Source: a virus. From it: a DNA stretch of 24,572 nucleotides. Location of the stretch: IMG/VR virus record IMGVR_UViG_3300047585_000021, positions 1-24,572 of that record; one strand, given 5' to 3'. The notes under the pieces are model-generated. The model did no database searches. It was not told where the DNA came from and was given only the letters and a program-made list of their open reading frames with translations. This document shows positions 2-14,190 of the stretch, in pieces; positions within the stretch are counted from its first letter, which is position 1; each line of letters begins with the position of its first letter. A program made the translations under genes and the position numbers.

Positions 2-556
2 GCGAACGGCTCGCAGGGCGGCGACGAGACCCATGAGCACGAGCACACCCACGACAACGACGCCGACCACGGTCACAGCCATGGCGGGGCCGACGACCGG
101 GCCCCGGCCCGCGTAGTGGCCGTGCGCGCGCGGGTGCTCGGCATCGAGTCGATGCCGCTGGCGGCCAAGGCGCTGCCTGTGCATCACACGGCCACGACCG
201 ACGAGGCGTGGGATGGCCCGGCCGCGGTCGCCGCGATGCCGGCTGACGACACGGTCCTGAAGTACTGCCACGCCTGGGAAGACGCCGACGCGGCCAGCGT
301 GCCCCACGAAGACGGCGACGACGACGCCGACGACCAGAAGGGGAACTACAAGTTCCCGCACCACAAGACCAAGGGCGGCCCGGCGAACCTGGCCGCCTGC
401 CAGAACGGCATCGACCGGCTGTCGTCAGCGGACATTCCCGCGGCCGACGACGCCGGCGTGAAAGCGCACCTGCAGGGCCACCTGGACGACGGCGGCAAGG
501 GCGGCAAAGACGCAAGCGACCACGCGGACACGCCCGCGTGGCTACGGGACGCCTGA
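2..556 (+). CDS. Prohead protease-like protein, C-terminal part (5' end outside window)
   Basis: The frame is open from the window edge, so only the C-terminal ~184 residues are seen. They start with a His/Asp/Glu-rich stretch (about residues 10-30, many HEH/HTH/HGHSH steps) that could bind metal. The conserved-looking domain follows: KALPVHHTATTDEAWDGP, then HHKTKGGPANLAACQNGI and ADIPAADDAGVKAHLQGHL. From memory, this D-E-W-D-G-P ... A-C-x-x-G-I ... I-P-x-x-D-x-x-G-V-x-x-H-L block is typical of the C-terminal extension of actinophage HK97-type prohead proteases. Its position just upstream of the capsid gene agrees. The protease core (catalytic His/Ser) is not in the window, so the enzymatic call is inference. 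A GTG at 116 is an internal codon rather than the likely start, because the frame stays open and composition-consistent upstream. A capsid-associated protein without protease activity is the alternative. Confidence 0.7.
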   Translation, partial: ANGSQGGDETHEHEHTHDNDADHGHSHGGADDRAPARVVAVRARVLGIESMPLAAKALPVHHTATTDEAWDGPAAVAAMPADDTVLKYCHAWEDADAASVPHEDGDDDADDQKGNYKFPHHKTKGGPANLAACQNGIDRLSSADIPAADDAGVKAHLQGHLDDGGKGGKDASDHADTPAWLRDA

Positions 557-565
557 GGAGGCGGT

Positions 566-2089
566 ATGACCACGATGACGCTCCCCACCTCCCAGGAGGA
601 GTTCGAGGAGGCCCTGAACGACCGGGCCAAAATGAAGGCGGTCTGGGAGGACGGCGAGGAGGGCTGGCAGGGCTTCGTCCGCGGCTACGCCAAGGCCGCA
701 CTGGAGACGGCGGCCGGTGACCCGACCGAGCTATCCCTGCAGATGCGCGAGCAGGTCCAGCTGGGCATGCAGGAGTTCCTCAGGGACCAGGCCGCGCAGG
801 GTTACCGCCCCGCCGCCGGATTCAGGCCCGGCGCTGGCCCGGCGCTGACCGGCCGCGAGGCCCGCAGGGCGCGCGCCGTCACCCGGTCACGGATGCGCAA
901 CGCCGCCTACCTCGCCGACGAGAACGCCCTGTTCAATGAGCGCGCGCTGGGCGCGGCCGTTGACGAGGAAGAGTACGCGGCCAACTTCGGCAAGTTCATG
1001 TACGCGATCTTCAAGGCCGAGAAGGATGCCGGCCAGCGGGGCGACACGGAGAAGGTCACCCGGATCCAGGACTTCAAGGCCAAGCTCGAGAAGACGCGCC
1101 TGAGCAACGCCATGTCCGAGCGGATTCCGTCCGAGGGCGGCTTCCTGGTGCCTGAGAACCTCCGCTCGGAGATTCTCATGGTGGCGCTGGAGACTGCGGT
1201 GATCCGGCCGCGGGCGCGGATCATCCCGATGGACTCGCTGCGGGTGCCGCTGCCCTCGATCGACGACACGAGCCACGCCAGCAACGTCTACGGCGGGGTT
1301 CAGGCGTTCTGGACCGAGGAAGGCGCGGCGCTGGCCAGCTCGGCGCCGACCTGGGGCCGCATCACCCTTGAGGCCAAGAAGCTAACGGCCTACACCGCCA
1401 TCCCGAACGAGCTGCTCCAGGACAGCACGACCAGCCTGGACATGTGGTTCAACAAGTTCTTCCCGACCGCGGTCTCCTGGTTCGAGGACGTCGGCTTCAT
1501 CAGCGGGACGGGTGTCGGCGAGCCGCAGGGCATCCTGCAGGCCCCGGGTGCGGTGCGGGTGCCGGTCGGCACTGACTACACGATCGCGTTCGCGGACATC
1601 GCGAAGGCCTACAGCCAGATGTGGCCGGCCAGCCTGAACCGGGCGGTGTGGCTGTGCAGCCCGGACGTGCTGCTGCAGCTGCTCCTGCTGGCGCTGACGA
1701 GCAACTCGACCACGATCGCGCCGCCGCTGTGGCTGCAGCAGATGAACGCCACCGACACGCCGGGCGGCGGCAACGGCGACGGTGTCAGCTACCGGCTGAT
1801 GGGCCGGCCGCTGATCGTGACGGAGAAGATGCCGTCGGGCCTGAGCGGGAACACGACCACGCCGGGTGCTCTCACCCTGGTTGACCTGGACTACTACCTG
1901 CTGGGTGACCGCCAGACCATGCAGGTGGCCAGCTCGGACGAGTACCTGTTCGGCCAGGACATGATCGCCTACCGGATCATCGAGCGCCTCGACGGCCGGT
2001 TCTGGCTGCAGAGCCCGATCACCCCGGAAAACGGCAGCTCACAGAAGCTGTCTCCCCTCGTCAAGATCGACACCACGGCCACGAGCTGA
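566..2089 (+). CDS. HK97-fold phage major capsid protein (first of two)
   Basis: This 507-residue protein should be the main subunit of the icosahedral head. Residues 1 to ~182 form a charged, helix-rich N-terminal part, which matches the scaffold-like delta domain that prohead protease removes in HK97-type heads. The conserved core begins at residue ~183 with SERIPSEGGFLVPENLRSE. It continues with IRPRARIIPMDSLRVPLP, an FWTEEGAAL stretch, YTAIPNELLQDS, WFEDVGFISGTGVGEPQG (near residue 314), and ends with RIIERLDGRFWLQSPITP. These are hallmark features of the HK97-type capsid family (TIGR01554-like). Total length is typical for an uncleaved precursor. The start is supported by GAGGAGG at 555-561, four bases upstream of the ATG. 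It lies directly behind the protease-like gene, the usual order. A paralogue follows at 2555. Confidence 0.95.
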   Translation: MTTMTLPTSQEEFEEALNDRAKMKAVWEDGEEGWQGFVRGYAKAALETAAGDPTELSLQMREQVQLGMQEFLRDQAAQGYRPAAGFRPGAGPALTGREARRARAVTRSRMRNAAYLADENALFNERALGAAVDEEEYAANFGKFMYAIFKAEKDAGQRGDTEKVTRIQDFKAKLEKTRLSNAMSERIPSEGGFLVPENLRSEILMVALETAVIRPRARIIPMDSLRVPLPSIDDTSHASNVYGGVQAFWTEEGAALASSAPTWGRITLEAKKLTAYTAIPNELLQDSTTSLDMWFNKFFPTAVSWFEDVGFISGTGVGEPQGILQAPGAVRVPVGTDYTIAFADIAKAYSQMWPASLNRAVWLCSPDVLLQLLLLALTSNSTTIAPPLWLQQMNATDTPGGGNGDGVSYRLMGRPLIVTEKMPSGLSGNTTTPGALTLVDLDYYLLGDRQTMQVASSDEYLFGQDMIAYRIIERLDGRFWLQSPITPENGSSQKLSPLVKIDTTATS

Positions 2090-2126
2090 GCTCTGGCCAG
2101 GGTTTGCCCGAAGGAGGCAGCTAGTC

Positions 2127-2552
2127 ATGATGGAAGCGCTCGGCCGACTGTTCAATGTCGCGCCAATCGCAGCGGGAACGCTGATCAGCCTCAAGGATGC
2201 CGCCGGCGTGACGTTCGTCTGCACCGGCAACGACACGTTCACCGTCAAGAGCGCGAACACCTACAACGGCTCGGCGACGGCGCTGACCGCGATCACCCGC
2301 TACTACAGCAACACCTCGACGGCGGGCGGGGCGGCCTGGACGGACTCCGGCGACCTGGCCAACGCGGTCTCGGCGGTGACGATCGCGTCGGGCGTGGTGG
2401 TGTTCTACATCGACGCCGCGGACCTCCCGGCCGGCGCGGAGTACGTCGAGGTGACGGTCGCCGCGTCCGGCCTGGTGCAGGCGATCACGCACGACCTGCT
2501 GCCGCAGCGCACGCCGAAGCTGATGCGCCAGCTGTCGGGGTCGGCCAGCTGA
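2127..2552 (+). CDS. Small beta-rich head protein, possible capsid decoration protein
   Basis: A 141-residue protein sits between the two capsid genes. It has AGTLISLKDAAGVTFVC near the N-terminus, a hydrophobic/Thr-rich middle with alternating beta-type residues, and a C-terminal HDLLPQRTPKL tail. No signal peptide, membrane helix or catalytic motif is visible. Similar small proteins next to the capsid gene in actinophages are usually of unknown function. Its size, beta character and position suggest a decoration or head-stabilising protein, but this is inference. AAGGAGG at 2111-2117 gives a good ribosome binding site; two consecutive ATG codons (2127 and 2130) are both possible starts. It ends two bases before the ATG of the second capsid gene, so the two are probably co-translated. 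Confidence 0.85.
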   Translation: MMEALGRLFNVAPIAAGTLISLKDAAGVTFVCTGNDTFTVKSANTYNGSATALTAITRYYSNTSTAGGAAWTDSGDLANAVSAVTIASGVVVFYIDAADLPAGAEYVEVTVAASGLVQAITHDLLPQRTPKLMRQLSGSAS

Positions 2553-2554
2553 CC

Positions 2555-3736
2555 ATGACCACCGACACGCTGCCGCTGGCGGAGCTGGAGCTGAGCGCGG
2601 GCGATCTGCCTGCGCCCGGTTCCTGGCGGTCGGCGCTGTACCGGCCGGACGCGCCGGGCGCGGCGCTGGACGGCCAGCCGTGGGCGCGGTCGTGGGGTGC
2701 GTTCATGCATGCCATCACCGACCCGGACAACCCGGCGGCGCGCACCCTGATCGGCAACGTCATGTCGGAGCGGGTGCCCAGCGAGGGCGGGTTCCTGGTG
2801 CCGGAGTTCCTGCGGTCGCAGGTGCTGGCATACATGACGGCCCCGATCGTGCGCCCGCAGGCGATGGTGCTGCCGATGACGTCGGACCGGCTGGCGATCC
2901 CGGTGCTGGATAACCCGAGCCAGGCCAGCAGCGCGCAGGCGCTGGGCGGCATGACGTTCGCATGGGTTGAGCCGGGGGCGGTGATCCCGGGCTCGGCGGC
3001 CACGGCCCTGGCGCCGCAGTTCGGCCGCGCGGTCCTGGAGGCCCGCAAGGCCGCCGCGTACATGCAGGGCGTGCCGAACGAGCTGGTGGACGACGCGGCG
3101 GGCGCGTTCGGCGACTTCACCGCGCGGGTGATCGCGAAGGGTTATGCGTGGTTCGAGGATGACGCGTGGCTGAACGGCACCGGGGTGGGCCAGCCGCAGG
3201 GGCTGATCAACGCCGCGTGCGCGGTGGGCGTGGACCGCACCACGGCTAACGCGGTGACGTTCCTGGACGTCGTCGCGATGTTCAAGGCGCTGCACCCGGC
3301 GAGCAAGCAGTCCGGGCTGACGCCGGGCGTGACCTCGACGGCGTGGCTGATGTCGGCGACCGTGATGGACCAGATCCTGGAGATCTACTACAACCCGACG
3401 GGCAGTGAGGTTGTGCCGCCGTCGGGGTGGTTCTCAATGGGCGACGGGCGCGAGATCGGCCCGAACATGCTGGGCCTGCCCGCCGTGGTGACCGACCACC
3501 AGCCCGCCATTGGGGCGACGGGCGACATTGTGCTGGCCGACCTGGCGGAGTACGTGATCGGCGACCGGCTGGCGATGACTGTGGAGCGGTCGGCGAAGGG
3601 TGCCGGGTTCGTAACGGGCACCTCGAATTTCCGCATCAAGAGCCGGGTGGACGGCCGGTACTGGATCCAGAGCCCGACCACGACCGAGGCCGGCCAGACG
3701 GTGAGCCCGGTCGTGGTCCTGGACACCCACACCTAG
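2555..3736 (+). CDS. Second HK97-fold major capsid protein paralogue with short N-terminus
   Basis: The 393-residue product is clearly paralogous to the capsid protein at 566. Shared landmarks are MSER(V/I)PSEGGFLVPE (here residues 70-83), IVRPQAMVLPM, GVPNELV, YAWFEDDAWLNGTGVGQPQG (near residue 208), a GLPAVVTDHQP stretch and the ending KSRVDGRYWIQSPTT. The short helix before the core also matches (WGAFMHAIT here, FGKFMYAIF in the first copy). The N-terminal part before that helix is only about 45 residues against about 140, so most of the scaffold-like delta region is absent. The core is intact and in frame, with no sign of decay. There is no strong ribosome binding site, and the gene starts two bases after the preceding stop, which suggests translational coupling. 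It may form a minor capsomer (for example a vertex protein, as T4 gp24 does relative to gp23) or mixed hexamers; this is inference. Confidence 0.93.
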   Translation: MTTDTLPLAELELSAGDLPAPGSWRSALYRPDAPGAALDGQPWARSWGAFMHAITDPDNPAARTLIGNVMSERVPSEGGFLVPEFLRSQVLAYMTAPIVRPQAMVLPMTSDRLAIPVLDNPSQASSAQALGGMTFAWVEPGAVIPGSAATALAPQFGRAVLEARKAAAYMQGVPNELVDDAAGAFGDFTARVIAKGYAWFEDDAWLNGTGVGQPQGLINAACAVGVDRTTANAVTFLDVVAMFKALHPASKQSGLTPGVTSTAWLMSATVMDQILEIYYNPTGSEVVPPSGWFSMGDGREIGPNMLGLPAVVTDHQPAIGATGDIVLADLAEYVIGDRLAMTVERSAKGAGFVTGTSNFRIKSRVDGRYWIQSPTTTEAGQTVSPVVVLDTHT

Positions 3737-7199: not shown

Positions 7200-7678
7200 G
7201 CGGCTTCGACGGGCCGGGCGTCCTGGCCGTCTACTCGGCGCTGACCAGCCACGCCAAGAGCCTGAACATCTTCCAGGACGTCAACCGGCACGAGTCGGAC
7301 AACCCGCCAGCGGGCGGCGCGTACTGCTCGTTCCTGCTCGGCGACGGCGAGGCGATCCGGGCGTCCGGGATGACCGCGACGTCGATCCGGCAGGAGTTCA
7401 CTGCCCGCATCTACGTGCTCCGCCAGCAGCGGCCCCTGGAGGCGATCGACCCGGCGATCCTGACCTCGACCATGCTCCTGGTGGCCGCCTACTCCGCCGA
7501 CTTCACGCTGGCCAGCGTCCCGGCCGGCCTGGTGCGGAACGTGGACCTGCTCGGCGCGACCGGCCAGGGGCTGAGCTGGCGGCCCGGCTACCTGGAGCAG
7601 GACGGCAGCACGTACCGGGTGATGGACGTCCTCGTTCCGCTGATCCTCAACGACGCGTTTGCGCAGGTGGCGACATGA
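7196..7678 (+). CDS. Tail terminator-like protein
   Basis: The 160-residue protein begins with GVLAVYSALTSHAKSLNIFQ, continues with beta segments (TSIRQEFTARIYVL) and ends with YRVMDVLVPLILNDAFAQVA. Length, alpha/beta character and position (immediately before the tail-tube genes) fit a tail terminator, the ring that caps the tube and joins it to the connector. Family membership rests mainly on synteny. It overlaps both neighbours by four bases (GTGA at the start, ATGA at the end), so translation is probably coupled through the connector-tail genes. Confidence 0.75.
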   Translation: MSGFDGPGVLAVYSALTSHAKSLNIFQDVNRHESDNPPAGGAYCSFLLGDGEAIRASGMTATSIRQEFTARIYVLRQQRPLEAIDPAILTSTMLLVAAYSADFTLASVPAGLVRNVDLLGATGQGLSWRPGYLEQDGSTYRVMDVLVPLILNDAFAQVAT

Positions 7679-9123
7679 GCGGGAGCACCACGAAGAGCAG
7701 TGGTCTCGGCGATGACCTGGTCGTGGCCGGTTACCACATCGGCGGCGACGTCCAGGACCTGAGCATCGCCAGCCCGCTCGGCGTGCTCGACGTCACCGAC
7801 ATCACCCAGTACGGCCACTCCCGCCTCGCCGGCCTGCGCAGTGCCTCCATGGACCTGGTCACGTTCCACGACCCGGCCGCGAATATGGCCCATGACGCAT
7901 TCAAGGGCCTGCCCACGGCCGACGTGATCATGACCTACCTGCGCGGGACGGCACTCGGGGGCGCGGCGGCGAGCCTGAACGCCAAGCAGGTCGGCTACGA
8001 CCCGACCAGGAGCAACGACGGCAGCCTGACATTCAAGGTGCAGGGCCAGTCGAACTCCTACAATGCCGCCGCCCTGGACTGGGCCGTCCAGCTCACCCCC
8101 GGAGTGACCAGCGTTGCCAACCTGCTGACCGGCCAGAACGCGGGTTTCGAGGGCGGCGTCGGCAACTGGGTGCAGGCGGGCGGCTGCACGGTCGCCGACT
8201 CGTCGGCGCAGGCCCATTCGGGCAGCGATTCGCTGGCATTGACCTGTACGACGGCTGGCACGATGGGTGCCGCGTCGTGCATCGCCTCCAGCATCACCAC
8301 GCAGGGGCTCGCGGTCACGGCGGGCCAGCTCTACACCGTCCAGATGTACCTGCGGGCGGCCACGGCGGCCCGCACCAGCACGCCGCAGATCGCGTTCTAC
8401 AGCCCCGCGGGGACCCTGCTGTCCACGGTCAGCGGCAGCGCGGTCGCGGACGTGACGACCGGCTGGACGCTGCTGACGGTCGAGGCCGCGATCGCCCCGG
8501 CGACGGCGGTCTATGCCCGGGTGCTGATCCAGGTCGCCAGCGCGGCCCTGACTGAGGTGCATTACCTCGACGACGTGTCCGTGTTCCCGGCGCCGGGCAG
8601 TGTGAACAACGGCCAGGCGTACGGCTTCGGCGCGCAGGCCTATCTGCACGTGCCCGCGTTCACCGGCACCGATGTGACCGTGCAGCTGCAGCATGCCCCG
8701 GATGGCGAGACCTGGACGGAACTGGCCGCCTTCAGTCAGGTCACCGGCTCCGTGCCGCTGGCGCAGCGGCTGTGCCTGTCCGGGCTGTTCACCTGCCCCG
8801 TGGCGTCGCCCGGGGTGTTCACCGCGCCGGGCCCGGTCTTCCTGGCCAACCAGGCGGTGCAGCTGTCCGCGCTGCCCGGCCAGAGCCTGCCCGGCGGGTT
8901 CGCCGCGGCGACGACGTACTACGTGATCTCGCCGGCCGGCAGCACGTTCGGGCTGGCCGCGACGCCGTCCGGTTCGCCGATCAACGCCACCACGGCCGGC
9001 TCTGGGGTCGTGGGCGCGGTGGTGGACCAGTACCTGCAGGCCGCGCTCACGACGGTAGGCGGCTTCACCGCCCTGTCGTACGAGGTCAACGTGAATGTGA
9101 ATCCGGTGCAAGTCGTCTTCTAG
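7675..9123 (+). CDS. Tail-tube-like protein with two inserted domains
   Basis: The 482-residue protein has the frame of an actinophage tail-tube protein: residues 1-~148 (STKSSGLGDDLVVAGYHIGG ... LRSASMDLVTFHDPAANMAH ... VIMTYLRGTALGG ... DGSLTFKVQGQSNSYN) and the pieces FGAQAYLHVPAFTGTDVTVQ and FTALSYEVNVNVNPVQVVF. Two segments interrupt this frame. Residues ~149-309 (NAGFEGGVGNWVQAGGCTVA ... LDDVSVFPAPG) look like a carbohydrate-binding jelly-roll of the CBM4/9 type. Residues ~372-447 (ending SLPGGFAAATTYYVISP ... INATTAGSG) are a module also present in two tail-tip proteins further on. ATG 7675 overlaps the previous stop. Whether it forms the tube itself or a minor ring is open, because a second tube-like protein follows at 9608. 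Confidence 0.8.
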   Translation: MSGSTTKSSGLGDDLVVAGYHIGGDVQDLSIASPLGVLDVTDITQYGHSRLAGLRSASMDLVTFHDPAANMAHDAFKGLPTADVIMTYLRGTALGGAAASLNAKQVGYDPTRSNDGSLTFKVQGQSNSYNAAALDWAVQLTPGVTSVANLLTGQNAGFEGGVGNWVQAGGCTVADSSAQAHSGSDSLALTCTTAGTMGAASCIASSITTQGLAVTAGQLYTVQMYLRAATAARTSTPQIAFYSPAGTLLSTVSGSAVADVTTGWTLLTVEAAIAPATAVYARVLIQVASAALTEVHYLDDVSVFPAPGSVNNGQAYGFGAQAYLHVPAFTGTDVTVQLQHAPDGETWTELAAFSQVTGSVPLAQRLCLSGLFTCPVASPGVFTAPGPVFLANQAVQLSALPGQSLPGGFAAATTYYVISPAGSTFGLAATPSGSPINATTAGSGVVGAVVDQYLQAALTTVGGFTALSYEVNVNVNPVQVVF

Positions 9124-9137
9124 GGAGGTGGTCTGAC

Positions 9138-9608
9138 ATGCCAGCATCCCGCAGGGCCGTGGCCCGCGCGGTGCGGCAGCCGTTCCGTATGGCGCCGCGG
9201 CTGCCGGTCACCGCGGTCAAGACCTGGGCTGTGCGCCAGTCATCCGACCGCACGGTGAAGGTGGCGTGCGAACGCGCCGCCCCGCCGTGCTGGTCCTACC
9301 TCAAGGGCTGGGAAACCTTCCTCGACGAGAAGGTGCCCGCGCAGGCCGAGGCTGCGCGCTGGATCCGCCACGAGTCCGGGCGCACCTTCACCGAGACCAC
9401 CGGCGGCGGCCTGACCGTCTTCCGGTTCGGGCCGGGGCAACGGTGCTTCACCGAGCATCGCACCCGCCCGCAGCAGTGGGTCGAGCGCGACGGCGACTGG
9501 CGCGGCCGGGGCCGCGGTGCCGTGCTGCTGCACAAGCGGCCGGCTGACTGGCAGGAATCGTTCGGCGAGCACCAGGACCGGCTCGCCACGGCAATCGAAA
9601 GGGGCTGA
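9138..9608 (+). CDS. Conserved actinophage protein of unknown function
   Basis: A 156-residue basic protein. The recognisable part is WSYLKGWETFLDEK, ESGRTFTETT, FGPGQRCFTEHR, GDWRGRGRG and a closing DWQESFGEHQDRL. From memory this set of motifs (C-x-x-Y-x-x-G-W ... E-S-G-R-x-F-T ... F-x-P-G-Q-x-C-F-x-E-H-R ... G-D-W-R-G ... D-W-x-x-x-F-G-E-H-Q) is common just upstream of the tail-tube gene in actinophages; no function is known. GGGAGGTGG at 9123-9131 is a good ribosome binding site for ATG 9138. An earlier in-frame start would run inside the preceding gene. It is a soluble protein without visible membrane segments. Confidence 0.85.
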   Translation: MPASRRAVARAVRQPFRMAPRLPVTAVKTWAVRQSSDRTVKVACERAAPPCWSYLKGWETFLDEKVPAQAEAARWIRHESGRTFTETTGGGLTVFRFGPGQRCFTEHRTRPQQWVERDGDWRGRGRGAVLLHKRPADWQESFGEHQDRLATAIERG

Positions 9609-10027
9609 TCACGATTAGCAAGGTCACCGGCCTCGGCTGGACCACCTTCACCCTCGCGGACGCCGCGGGCACCCCCCGCGACATCCGCGACGACATCAAC
9701 TCGCTGAACTTCGCCACCCCGCGTGGCGTGCAGGACGTCACCGGCATCGGGGTGTCGGCACACGAGCGGCTGCTGCTGCTGGCCGACCTGTCCGTCGAGA
9801 TGGACGGCACGTTCGACAACGGCACCAACCTCGAGCACGACGTCTTCCAGACGATCAGCTCGACGTCGGTGAACCGGGCGATGGCCAACACGGTCAACGG
9901 CTGCACGCTCAACGCCAACCTGCTGCTCACCGACTACCAGATCGCCCGGTCCGCGACCGGCGAGCTGACCTGGAAGGTGCCCGGCGTGCTGGCCGACGGC
10001 AACGTGCCCCAGTGGTCCGGAGACTAG
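9608..10027 (+). CDS. Major tail tube protein with non-ATG start
   Basis: The ~139-residue product reads SKVTGLGWTTFTLADAAG, then IRDDINSLNFATPRGVQDVT, ERLLLLADLSVEMDGTFDN, HDVFQTISSTSVNRAMANTV and GELTWKVPGVLADGNVPQWS. From memory this is the compact actinophage tail-tube family whose N-terminus is conserved. No ATG, GTG or TTG lies between the upstream stop region and the conserved start. The candidates are ATC 9608 (overlapping the preceding stop as TGATC), ACG 9611 or ATT 9614, preceded by GAAAGGGG at 9597-9604. GTG 9728 would remove ~40 conserved residues and is unlikely to be the true start. ACG and TGATC each differ by one base from a normal ATG or TGATG, so a point change or sequencing error is possible. 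Confidence 0.8.
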   Translation: MTISKVTGLGWTTFTLADAAGTPRDIRDDINSLNFATPRGVQDVTGIGVSAHERLLLLADLSVEMDGTFDNGTNLEHDVFQTISSTSVNRAMANTVNGCTLNANLLLTDYQIARSATGELTWKVPGVLADGNVPQWSGD

Positions 10028-10110: not shown

Positions 10111-10875
10111 ATGGGCGGAGCGGCGTCGGGAAACTACATGGTCAAGTCCTGCGGGAAGGCGCACGCCTGGTGTGCGGAGTGCATGCCAGAGGTGGCGGCC
10201 GGCCAGCGGGGGCCGAAGCCGCCGAACCCGGAGCTGCCGCCATGCCGGAACTGTGGCCGCTGCGACGCCTGCCTAGGGCTGGTCGCCCCGGAGGGAATGA
10301 AGGTCTGCCGTCAGTGCGGGGAGACCAAGTCGCTCTCCGGGTTCTACAGGCGCCCGGAGGGTGGCACCTACCGCAACCAGTGCAGGCGGTGTGTTTCTGG
10401 CCCAGTGAAGCGGGTGGTCTGCGAAGGGTGCGGGCGCCGGTTCGGCAGGCATGGGGACACGCGGACGCTCTGTCCCCGATGCCGGCCGCCCCTCACGAAG
10501 CCGTGCGCCCGGTGCGGCACGGAGTTTGTCGGCTCGATGGACCAGCGGCGCTACTGCTCGCCGGAGTGCCGCGCTGCGGCACTCAAGGATCAGCGGGACG
10601 CGGTGCGCAAGGCGCAGCGCCTCGAAGCCCTGCGGGCCTACAGCGGCGGGGGCGAGCCGGCCTGCGCGTGCTGCGGCGAGTCCATCCTGCTGTTCCTTGC
10701 ACTCGATCACGTCAATGGCGGCGGCTATCAGCAGCACCGGGAGCTGGGCGGCGGCGGCTTCTATTCGTGGCTACGCAAGAACAACTATCCGGAGGGATTT
10801 CAGTTGCTCTGCCATAACTGCAACTTCGGGCGCCAGCTCAATGGTGGCGTCTGCCCGCACGTGGGGGCCGGTTAA
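10111..10875 (+). CDS. HNH homing endonuclease-like protein with multiple zinc ribbons
   Basis: The 254-residue protein carries several CxxC pairs in its first ~180 residues (CAECMPE; CRNCGRCDAC; CRQCGETKSLSGFYRR ... CRRC; CEGCGRRF ... CPRC; CARCGTEF ... CSPEC), a string of zinc ribbons probably used for DNA contact. The C-terminal part is an HNH nuclease core: CACCGE (185-190), ALDHVNGGG with His200, FYSWLRKNNYPEGFQLLCHN with His235, then CNFGRQ and CPH. This arrangement is typical of free-standing phage HNH endonucleases. It lies between the tail-tube and chaperone genes, where it has no virion role, so it is likely an inserted selfish gene. AAGGGGG at 10097-10103 precedes the ATG. The stop overlaps the next ATG (TAATG). 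Confidence 0.88.
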   Translation: MGGAASGNYMVKSCGKAHAWCAECMPEVAAGQRGPKPPNPELPPCRNCGRCDACLGLVAPEGMKVCRQCGETKSLSGFYRRPEGGTYRNQCRRCVSGPVKRVVCEGCGRRFGRHGDTRTLCPRCRPPLTKPCARCGTEFVGSMDQRRYCSPECRAAALKDQRDAVRKAQRLEALRAYSGGGEPACACCGESILLFLALDHVNGGGYQQHRELGGGGFYSWLRKNNYPEGFQLLCHNCNFGRQLNGGVCPHVGAG

Positions 10876-11384: not shown

Positions 11385-11512
11385 GGGCGGAGCTGGTGCT
11401 GGGCCTGGCCGAAATGTGGCACTCCCGCCCATCCCAGGTGCTGAAGGAAGACGCGGAGGTGCTGCGCGACCTGGAGGTCAGGCGGCTCGGAACGCCGAGG
11501 GGAGGTGAGTAA
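10875..11512 (+). CDS. Tail assembly chaperone, -1 frameshift fusion (gpGT-like)
   Basis: Slippage by -1 at 11237-11243 joins the first ~123 residues of the zero frame to 89 residues of the overlapping frame, for ~212 residues in total. The added part reads ARRLREWRDATG, then a Gly/Asp-rich linker and a helical end, WELVRAELVLGLAEMWHSRP, SQVLKEDAEVLRDLEVRRL. That ending resembles the T domain of gpGT proteins, which contacts the tape measure. The T part has no start codon with a ribosome binding site of its own. The fusion stop overlaps the tape measure ATG as TAATG, as expected for a fusion that is the functional upstream partner. The joined coordinates are 10875-11243 then 11243-11512. Confidence 0.8.
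11237..11243 (+). other. Programmed -1 ribosomal frameshift site CCCTTTG
   Basis: The heptamer C CCT TTG is in the zero frame in the canonical X XXY YYZ register: tRNAs on CCT and TTG can re-pair with CCC and TTT. A possible stimulatory hairpin, TGGCG-CGA-CGCCA, lies at 11261-11273, 17 bases downstream (a little further than usual). No other in-register slippery heptamer was found between the end of the conserved G domain and the zero-frame stop. Confidence 0.72.
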
Positions 11513-14190
11513 TGGCGGCGAACGTCGTCGAGATCGTCATCACCAGCACAAACAAAGCGGGCGCTGGCATCGAGGAGTCCGCGGACCAGGCCGAGGAGGC
11601 CGCCGCGGCGTGGGACGCCTACGCGGACGCGGCCACCCGGGCGGCCGAGGCGAACACGGAGCTGGAGGCGGCGGCGGCCCGGCTGGCCGGGGTGCAGGCC
11701 GACGAGGGTGCCAGCGGCGAGGAGCTGGCCGCCGTGCAGAACGAGTACGCGGCGGCGCTGGACCGGGCCAGCACGGCGGCCACGGCGAGCCTGGACGCCC
11801 AGATGCGGCTGGCCGCGGCCGAGCGTGATAGCGCCGCGGCGGCGAAGGAGTCCAGCGACGCCCAGGAGGAGAGTGCCGCCAAGACCGACGAGTCCAGCGA
11901 GAGTGCGGGCATGTTCGCGGGCGCCTGGGGGAAGGCGAAGCTGGCACTCCTCGGCGTCGCCGGGGCGATGGTCTACGGCACGGTCAAGGCGGCCGGTTTC
12001 CAGAGTGTCATGAACACGCTGAACACGCAGGCGGGCGTGTCGCGCGGCCAGCTCGCGTCGCTCGGCAACGGGGTGCTGGCGCTGGCCGGGCAGGTCGGCG
12101 ACAGCCCGGACTCCCTGGCGCAGGCGCTCTACCACGTCGAGTCGTCGTTCGCCAGCGTCGGCATCACCGGCCCGAAGGCCCTCAACCTGCTGAAGACGGC
12201 GGCCGAGGGTGCGGCGGTCGGTCACGCCGACCTGGTCGACGTCACGAACGCGCTGGACGCGACGATCGTCGCCGGGGTGCCGGGGATCAAGTCCTACAGC
12301 GGCGCGATGGGTGCCCTTAACGCCATCGTCGGCTCCGGCGACATGACCATGCAGGATCTGGCCAGCGCGATGTCCACCGGCGTGATGGCGGTCGCGAAGT
12401 CGTTCGGCCAGAACATTTACCAGGTCGGGGCGGCCCTGGCCGTCTTCGGTGACAACAACATCCGGGGGGCCCACGCGGCGACGGAGCTGCGGATGGCCTG
12501 GCAGGCGATGCAGGCGCCGCTGACCACCGCGGGCCCGGTGCTGAAGAGCATCGGCCTGACGATGACCGAGCTGGGCCACACGATGACCCACGAGGGCATG
12601 TCGTCGGCGATCGAGCAGTTCATCCAGCACCTGCAGGCGAGCAAGGTCCCGGCCAGCGACTGGGGCCAGTACATGACTGAGATCTTCGGCAAGAAGGCCG
12701 GCGTCGGCATCGGGATCCTGACCGACCAGATCGACCGGCTCAAGAGCAAGTTCCCCGACCTCGAGCGCGGCGCATCCGGCTTCGGCTCGGCGTGGGCGCA
12801 CACGCAGCAGACGGTCGCGCAGCAGTGGGCCGACCTGAAGTCCAGCCTGGACGCCCTGGTCACCAAGATGGGCGTCGGCCTGCTGCCGATCGCCATGAAG
12901 GCCGTCCGCGGGCTGACCGACTTCGCCAACGCGCTCGAGCATGGGAAGGGCCCGGCGATCGCGGTCGCCGCCATCATCGGCGGCGCGCTGGCGGGGATCG
13001 CCCTCAAAAAGCTCCAGGATGGGCTCTCGACCGCAGCCGAGGGGTTCGAGAATCTCTGGAAGGGCGGCGAGAAGCTCGCGGGCTGGGCCGGCCAGATGAT
13101 CGGCAAGCTGACCGGCGCCGGGGACGCCGCGGCGGACGCGGCCACCGAGACCGAGGGCCTGGCCGCCGCACAGGATGCCCAGGCCGAGTCGGCGGAAGGG
13201 GCAGCGGCGGCGCAGGAAACCCTTGACGTTGCCGAGGACGCCAACCCGATCGGCGCGATCATCATGCTGCTGGTGGCCCTGGCCGCCGGGATCTATGAGG
13301 TCGTGAGGCACTGGAAGGACTTCGAGCACTGGGGATCCGAGGCCCTCCATGGGGTCGAGACCGCGGCCCGCGACGTGTGGTCCTGGATCAAGGCGAACTG
13401 GCCGATGCTGGCCGGGATCCTGCTAGCGCCATTTACCGGCGGTATTTCGCTGGCAATCGCCCTGATCGTGAAATTCCACAAGGATATCGAGCGCGAATTC
13501 GATGATATCCGCCACGACGTGGCGTCAGATCTGGACGGAATGCGCCACGATGTCGCCGCCGCTTTTGACGATTTTATTAGCACCGAGGAATCGGGGCTGG
13601 ATATTATCCGCCACGATTTCGCCTCGAAATTCGACCAAATCCGGCACGACATCGCCTCCTGGGGCGATGACGTCGTCCACTGGTTTGAGCAGCTCCCCGG
13701 CCGGATCGTGAACGGTGCGGCGGCGCTGCCGGGGATGCTTTTCCATCTCGGGGAGAACGCGATCTCTGGGCTGCTGCACGGCCTGGAATCGATGGTCGGC
13801 GGCCTGATCGGTGATGCGGAGAATTGGGGTCACGACATCGCCAACGCCATTGGCGGCGCTTTCGGTATCCATTTCAGCGAGCCGTCTGAGGCCACGAAGA
13901 TGATCGCGGCCGGGCAGCGCGCCGGCCTGGGCTTCGCCAAGGGGCTGGCGTCCACGGAGGGCGCCTTGCGCGGCGCCGCGGCGACCGCGTCCCGTGCCGC
14001 GATGTTCGGCGGGGCTGGCGGCGGCTACGGCGGCGGCGGTGCGGGCGGCCAGATGGAGGTCGTCCTGCGCTGGGAAGGGGCCGAATCGGGGCTGATCAGG
14101 GAGCTGTTCCAGTCGCTGAAGGCGCAGGTCCGGGTCGTCGGCGGCGGTGGCACCAACAGCGCCCAGCGGGCGTGGGGACAGACGAGCTAG
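11512..14190 (+). CDS. Tail tape measure protein
   Basis: At 892 residues this protein should set the tail length, about 130 nm at 0.15 nm per residue. Residues ~1-135 are an Ala/Glu/Asp-rich coiled-coil region. Residues ~150-480 match the TP901-type tape measure core (VMNTLNTQAGVSRGQLASLG, GIKSYSGAMGALNAIVGSG, IRGAHAATELRMAWQAM). Hydrophobic segments lie near residues 143-160, 481-500, 580-597 and 631-652, as in tape measures that insert into the membrane during DNA ejection. Residues 663-728 form six 11-residue repeats of the (F/L)DxIRHDxAS type. A Gly-rich stretch and a VVLRWEGAESG segment close the protein. The ATG overlaps the chaperone fusion stop. DNA at ~13430-13700 uses more A/T third positions than the rest, which hints at mosaic origin. 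Confidence 0.95.
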   Translation: MAANVVEIVITSTNKAGAGIEESADQAEEAAAAWDAYADAATRAAEANTELEAAAARLAGVQADEGASGEELAAVQNEYAAALDRASTAATASLDAQMRLAAAERDSAAAAKESSDAQEESAAKTDESSESAGMFAGAWGKAKLALLGVAGAMVYGTVKAAGFQSVMNTLNTQAGVSRGQLASLGNGVLALAGQVGDSPDSLAQALYHVESSFASVGITGPKALNLLKTAAEGAAVGHADLVDVTNALDATIVAGVPGIKSYSGAMGALNAIVGSGDMTMQDLASAMSTGVMAVAKSFGQNIYQVGAALAVFGDNNIRGAHAATELRMAWQAMQAPLTTAGPVLKSIGLTMTELGHTMTHEGMSSAIEQFIQHLQASKVPASDWGQYMTEIFGKKAGVGIGILTDQIDRLKSKFPDLERGASGFGSAWAHTQQTVAQQWADLKSSLDALVTKMGVGLLPIAMKAVRGLTDFANALEHGKGPAIAVAAIIGGALAGIALKKLQDGLSTAAEGFENLWKGGEKLAGWAGQMIGKLTGAGDAAADAATETEGLAAAQDAQAESAEGAAAAQETLDVAEDANPIGAIIMLLVALAAGIYEVVRHWKDFEHWGSEALHGVETAARDVWSWIKANWPMLAGILLAPFTGGISLAIALIVKFHKDIEREFDDIRHDVASDLDGMRHDVAAAFDDFISTEESGLDIIRHDFASKFDQIRHDIASWGDDVVHWFEQLPGRIVNGAAALPGMLFHLGENAISGLLHGLESMVGGLIGDAENWGHDIANAIGGAFGIHFSEPSEATKMIAAGQRAGLGFAKGLASTEGALRGAAATASRAAMFGGAGGGYGGGGAGGQMEVVLRWEGAESGLIRELFQSLKAQVRVVGGGGTNSAQRAWGQTS
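13498..13695 (+). repeat. Six 11-residue repeats within the tape measure gene
   Basis: Consecutive units read FDDIRHDVASD, LDGMRHDVAAA, FDDFISTEESG, LDIIRHDFASK, FDQIRHDIASW, GDDVVHWFEQL. The hydrophobic first position and the IRHD core are kept in four of six units; the third and sixth are divergent. Eleven-residue repeats with regularly spaced aromatic or large hydrophobic residues are known in tape measure proteins. Confidence 0.75.

Follow-up and report, generated by a model that had tools for sequence, protein, structure and literature searches.

Tandem PF05065 capsid paralogs in metagenomic phages: evidence for one old duplication and a candidate vertex subunit

In most phages with HK97-fold capsids, hexamers and pentamers are built from one protein. 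In phage T4, gp24 probably arose from the shell protein gp23 by duplication and forms 11 pentameric vertices (PMC9958956). The two T4 proteins are only ~20% identical, and the N-terminal piece that is cleaved off comprises 10 residues in gp24 and 65 in gp23 (PMC9958956). Names of a similar kind occur in long-tailed actinophages, where annotators of Gordonia cluster DR phages (e.g., CaiB), and also of mycobacteriophage cluster B, called adjacent head genes "major capsid hexamer" and "major capsid pentamer". The two CaiB proteins (560 and 257 aa) have no mutual similarity (best E 1.4) and neither matches the capsid family PF05065; the second belongs to a PHROG of unknown function. Outside the phages, two HK97-fold proteins share one shell in the Family 2B encapsulin of Streptomyces lydicus, according to the titles of entries 9bix and 9bje. 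We found no tandem PF05065 pair in the literature, in a search that took in little of the subscription literature and returned only T4-type vertex proteins and hexamer/pentamer names given by annotation.

We analyzed a stretch of phage DNA of 24,572 nucleotides (the window; IMG/VR record IMGVR_UViG_3300047585_000021, positions 1 to 24,572), in which two capsid ORFs, P1 and P2, lie in tandem (Table 1). An earlier note on this DNA had located both ORFs and assigned them to one capsid family with intact cores. The positions were exact, both ORFs are open and complete, and both proteins match PF05065 (Phage_capsid, HK97-lineage) with scores far above the curated cut-off of 24.2 bits. The match covers residues 191-482 of P1 (profile positions 1-272 of 280) and residues 78-368 of P2 (positions 1-268 of 280). 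Neither protein matched another Pfam family among 24736 models at E up to 0.1. Their PHROG matches were phrog_10 and phrog_617, which are major head protein families, and did not include the CaiB families phrog_777 and phrog_779. Because the CaiB proteins have no detectable relation to each other or to PF05065, their names do not denote a pair of the P1/P2 type. The encapsulin is not a phage capsid and is remote in sequence (~10% identity in the fold alignment).

The proposed functional parallel is T4. P1 and P2 are 34% identical over 403 columns in BLASTP (E=1e-67) and, like gp23 and gp24, appear to be paralogous HK97-fold shell proteins derived from a duplication, here a single one seen in 36 genotypes. 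As in T4, the second protein has a much shorter region before the core (~70 residues in P2 versus ~183 in P1, with ~145-165 in single-copy relatives). Unlike gp23 and gp24, P1 and P2 lie outside that sequence family and match PF05065 only; the pair therefore looks like a duplication independent of T4, and a vertex role for P2 is a proposal. The T4 tail is contractile and its head prolate. The window carries a tape measure gene and therefore belongs to a long-tailed phage.

Table 1. Features of the window discussed in the text (positions in the window; all on the strand shown)
Feature	Position	Strand	Evidence
Upstream gene, C-terminal part, cut by window edge; prohead protease?	2..556	+	Dagobah gene order
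AGGAGG Shine-Dalgarno of P1	556..561	+	sequence
P1, ancestral-type major capsid protein, 507 aa	566..2089	+	PF05065 150.7 bits; pLDDT 76.7; clade 99/95
P1 domains: helical scaffold-like (delta) region ~1-182, HK97 core ~183-507	within 566..2089	+	
P1 residues 1-118, scaffold-like part absent in P2, kept by single-copy relatives	566..919	+	BLASTP start P1 120 / P2 26; alignment with single-copy relatives
AAGGAGG Shine-Dalgarno of small head protein	2111..2117	+	sequence
Small head protein, 141 aa, probable decoration/cement protein	2127..2552	+	own HMM over relatives; role from position
TGA-CC-ATG junction: P2 start 2 nt past small-gene stop, without Shine-Dalgarno	2550..2557	+	sequence
P2, derived capsid paralog, 393 aa, proposed minor/vertex subunit	2555..3736	+	PF05065 99.8 bits; pLDDT 82.3; clade 100/100
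P2 domains: short N-terminal region ~1-70, HK97 core ~70-393	within 2555..3736	+	
Tape measure protein	11512..14190	+	PF10145 60.9 bits; PHROG tape measure families

Structures of P1 and P2 were predicted with AlphaFold2 from alignments of each protein's own relatives, a comparison that the earlier note had suggested. The RcGTA capsid (6tb9) was the best match of both models (VIA Z 19.1 for P1 and 18.8 for P2), and HK97 itself was matched at Z of ~16 (16.6 for P1 against prohead I). Across the solved HK97, T5, and RcGTA capsids, the two models gave Z values of 15-19 with an rmsd of ~3.5-5 Å over ~250 residues. An HK97 fold is thus predicted for both proteins. Foldseek ranks of the pentamer and hexamer chains of HK97 did not separate P1 from P2.

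Relatives were collected in four IMG/VR scans, and loci with a shared capsid sequence were merged into genotypes. Both genes were present in 36 distinct genotypes, and in every case P1 preceded P2 on the same strand. P1 was found alone in 12 genotypes, each with at most 1342 bases available downstream, and P2 alone in six, each with at most 1849 bases available upstream; one of the six (L050) has a P1 fragment at the contig end. The apparent exceptions to pairing are all contig ends, and no genotype among the IMG/VR loci had enough flank but lacked the partner gene. The earlier note had held that routine decay of the second copy in relatives would argue for a passenger duplicate. Degraded P2 was looked for among the relatives and none was seen, P2 being open in the 36 genotypes.

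Single-copy relatives made up 31 genotypes, with one capsid gene per whole record where whole records were searched. A pattern scan of 84,980 species genomes revealed no P2, and the 21 loci matched there by the P1 profile had one capsid place each within the examined stretch. The same was seen in the stretches examined of prophage relatives in Streptomyces, Kitasatospora, and Herbidospora; given these relatives, the window phage probably infects an actinobacterium. Cultivated phages had one capsid place per record in 223 of 223 records matching P1 and 61 of 61 matching P2, and none in the collection searched had two. The closest cultivated capsid relative, Streptomyces phage Dagobah (37% to P1), has the same small head gene downstream and, unlike the window phage, one capsid gene in its whole record. 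The dual-capsid genomes are all metagenomic and known from genes alone.

To place the duplication, we built a tree of 59 proteins without a very distant outgroup, whose inclusion made the base unstable. P1 and P2 each formed a well-supported clade (Table 1), and a larger quick tree agreed. The L082/L090 lineage was the first branch in both clades, which argues for one duplication before that split. These results indicate that the pair is the product of one ancient duplication that preceded the separation of the known dual-capsid lineages. Together with the 36 paired genotypes, the two clades bear out a duplication that is old and conserved, which the earlier note had left to a tree. Single-copy relatives, namely Dagobah and the actinobacterial prophages, lay at the base or outside of the P1 and P2 clades. 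A constraint holding P1 and P2 together against single-copy L077, L079, L087, and L095 was not rejected (p-AU 0.35); these four may have split off before or after the duplication, and they may thus have lost P2. The degree of identity between P1 and P2 and the presence of the pair in 36 genotypes rule out a chance or artifactual duplication, and two unrelated acquisitions are ruled out by the nesting of both clades among the same relatives.

Pairwise distances of P1 and P2 were correlated (r=0.55, Mantel p=0.0002), and the two trees were not fully congruent. L010 combines P1 of one subgroup with P2 of another, apparently through partner exchange by recombination, and the partners therefore seem exchangeable to some degree. 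The apparent reassortment lies at L010:4163-7614, where an unrelated 86-aa ORF stands between P1 and P2. In the earliest-branching two-capsid lineage (L082, L090/L091, and L094), the second copy is less diverged; the called start of L090 P2, which is uncertain, leaves only ~32 residues before the core.

The change after duplication was one-sided. Stem branches were 0.34+0.52 for P2 versus 0.055+0.10 for P1, and diagnostic sites polarized by the single-copy relatives comprised eight derived in P2 and none derived in P1. The eight sites map to the E-loop, P-domain, spine helix, and A-domain and are not gathered in a single interface. The long stem, these derived sites, and the loss of ~118 N-terminal residues mark P2 as the derived copy. 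The earlier note had described a duplicated, diverged, and shortened copy, which agrees with the 34% identity, the one-sided change, and the lost N-terminal residues. In close pairs, dN/dS was ~0.15-0.6 for both copies by a simple counting method, with synonymous sites near saturation in wider pairs. These values indicate purifying selection on both P1 and P2.

The core starts given in the earlier note, residues 183 and 70, were correct within a few residues. It had also stated that P2 lacks most of the scaffold-like region; this held, but the loss does not extend to the whole region before the core, because residues 26-69 of P2 align with residues 120-182 of P1. P2 has no counterpart to approximately residues 1-118 of P1 or to a stretch of ~19 residues further along (~157-175 in P1). 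The number of residues before the conserved GGFLVP motif is ~145-165 in single-copy relatives, ~175-190 in P1, and mostly ~55-90 in P2 (up to 107 where starts are uncertain). Since P1 and the single-copy relatives are long and P2 is short, the short form is the derived one. P1 and P2 have both retained the SERxPSEGGFLVPE motif of the N-arm. HK97-type proteins are usually cleaved near this motif, and both P1 and P2 would be cleaved, by one protease.

The earlier note had pointed out a small head protein between the two capsid genes. The gene is real and conserved, but it is not specific to the duplication and adjoins the capsid gene in single-copy relatives too. Its profile detected homologs directly after the capsid gene in Dagobah and in further single-copy relatives that include L018, L079, L087, and L096. 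In dual-capsid phages the gene follows P1 in some, including the window, and P2 in L005, L010, and L044. These placements identify it as ancestrally associated with the capsid gene and not as part of the duplication. The protein had no Pfam match and only a marginal PHROG match to a tail family (E=0.087); a decoration or cement function is a guess from its position and size. The gene part upstream of P1 matched neither Pfam nor PHROG and, from its position, probably encodes the prohead protease; Dagobah carries a Clp-type protease there.

Several neighboring genes were recorded in passing. HNH-like endonuclease ORFs lie between P1 and P2 in L003 (3159-3872), L004 (3391-4119 and 5114-5944), and L006 (946-1776). 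The L004 ORFs include the sequence MALGEG, with which the adjoining small head protein begins; it looks as though the start of that gene was duplicated on insertion. The tail region of the window includes tandem tail-tube-like paralogs at 7675-9123 and ~9602-10027, which are 32% identical over 103 columns (E=2e-11); long extra domains are inserted in the first. Both copies are also found in single-capsid relatives, and this duplication is therefore older than that of the capsid gene. An HNH endonuclease gene at 10111-10875 (phrog_2255, E=8.8e-15), likely a homing element, lies among the tail genes.

We also compared expression signals of P1 and P2. In the window, the Shine-Dalgarno sequences of P1 and of the small head gene are strong, and P2 has none. 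The junction upstream of P2 (Table 1) makes translational coupling to the small head gene probable. Among relatives, at least roughly half of the P2 starts that were called overlap or abut an upstream stop (-4, -1, +2, +3). Pairing with the anti-Shine-Dalgarno sequence was stronger for P1 in 13 of the 15 paired loci in which both starts could be called (medians -7.6 versus -5.3 kcal/mol; Wilcoxon p=0.005), under a calling rule that prefers good sites, and is thus biased against weak sites in P2, and with a few P1 starts placed by hand at the conserved N-terminus. At equal GC3, the share of C-ending two-fold codons was 0.896 in P2 and 0.940 in P1 (p=0.002), the loci in these expression comparisons being phylogenetically non-independent. 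Within the window the share was 0.97 in P1, 1.00 in one tail-tube-like gene, and 0.90 in P2, which resembles ordinary genes. These indirect signals are indications that smaller amounts of P2 are needed, which fits a minor subunit. In many relatives (e.g., L008:701-714), a conserved GCTCTGAAAGGGGC-like leader precedes the P1 start by ~6 bases; it is perhaps no more than the ribosome-binding site and the end of the upstream gene.

On these observations we propose that one capsid gene was duplicated once, before the known dual-capsid lineages separated. P1 would have retained the ancestral job and the long scaffold-like N-terminal region and would form most of the head as hexamers. P2 would have lost most of that region, changed fast on its stem branch, and then come under purifying selection as a minor subunit that joins the shell built by P1 and depends on P1 for assembly. 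The vertices are the obvious place for it, because T4 evolved the same arrangement; P2 would then be incorporated in the virion at the pentameric vertices, as ~55 of the several hundred subunits of the shell. On the preferred reading, P1 forms the hexamers and P2 a minor kind of capsomer, and we consider the chances slightly better than even that P2 occupies the pentameric vertices, as gp24 does beside gp23. The earlier note had suggested a division of labor, either between hexamer and pentamer subunits or between two head forms. A division of labor agrees with three observations: P1 and P2 are both under purifying selection, divergence is concentrated in P2, and P2 has the weaker expression signals. 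Hexamer versus pentamer appears to be its best-supported form. A vertex subunit is not a necessity, because one protein suffices for a closed shell in single-copy relatives, and P1, having no fixed diagnostic change, gives no sign of having lost pentamer formation.

P2 may instead be a structural minor subunit other than a penton, one that forms mixed capsomers by entering hexamers or a certain ring, such as one around the portal, or by acting as a determinant of size or curvature. We regard this as unlikely, though worth serious consideration: the data give a conserved, probably minor, P1-dependent subunit without a location, the P2-derived sites are scattered over four parts of the fold, and mixed HK97-fold shells exist, the two-component S. 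lydicus encapsulin being one of the fold matches. Against it, the only tailed-phage precedent we found in which a shell protein was duplicated and its N-terminal piece shortened is the T4 vertex protein. A bolder version, to which we give rather little credence, is that two full paralogs co-assemble in a fixed geometry beyond a simple penton swap, as mixed capsomers or with a size-setting subunit, so that two dedicated products replace quasi-equivalence and their ratio sets shell size.

Readings that take P2 out of the P1 shell fare worse. A move to a non-shell role in head assembly, in which P2 would act transiently, recruit the protease, or serve as a plug and be missing from mature shells, would suit the fast stem evolution of P2, whose presence in the virion is a prediction only; it is very unlikely in view of the capsid core, conserved over nearly its full length, and the N-arm motif common to both proteins. 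The second head form of the earlier note, a smaller or alternative particle made mainly of P2, is conceivable in that small shells can in principle form from capsid proteins that have no scaffold domain and that encapsulins share the fold. It went unsupported and seems highly improbable: P2 was never seen without P1 where the flank sufficed, its expression signals are the weaker ones, and most of the scaffold-like region retained by single-copy relatives is missing from it. That single-copy relatives manage without P2 could suggest a passenger duplicate with no function of its own. This reading is nearly refuted by the open P2 frames in 36 genotypes, retained since an old duplication, by dN/dS well under 1 in close pairs, and by the strongly conserved family-specific motifs.

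The family thus contains closely related one-gene and two-gene versions, including the basal two-gene lineage L082/L090, and the step from a self-switching capsid protein to a dedicated subunit is therefore directly comparable within it. The single-copy prophage relatives in Streptomyces offer an experimental handle. If P2 is a vertex protein, vertex specialization arose in the PF05065 lineage independently of T4.
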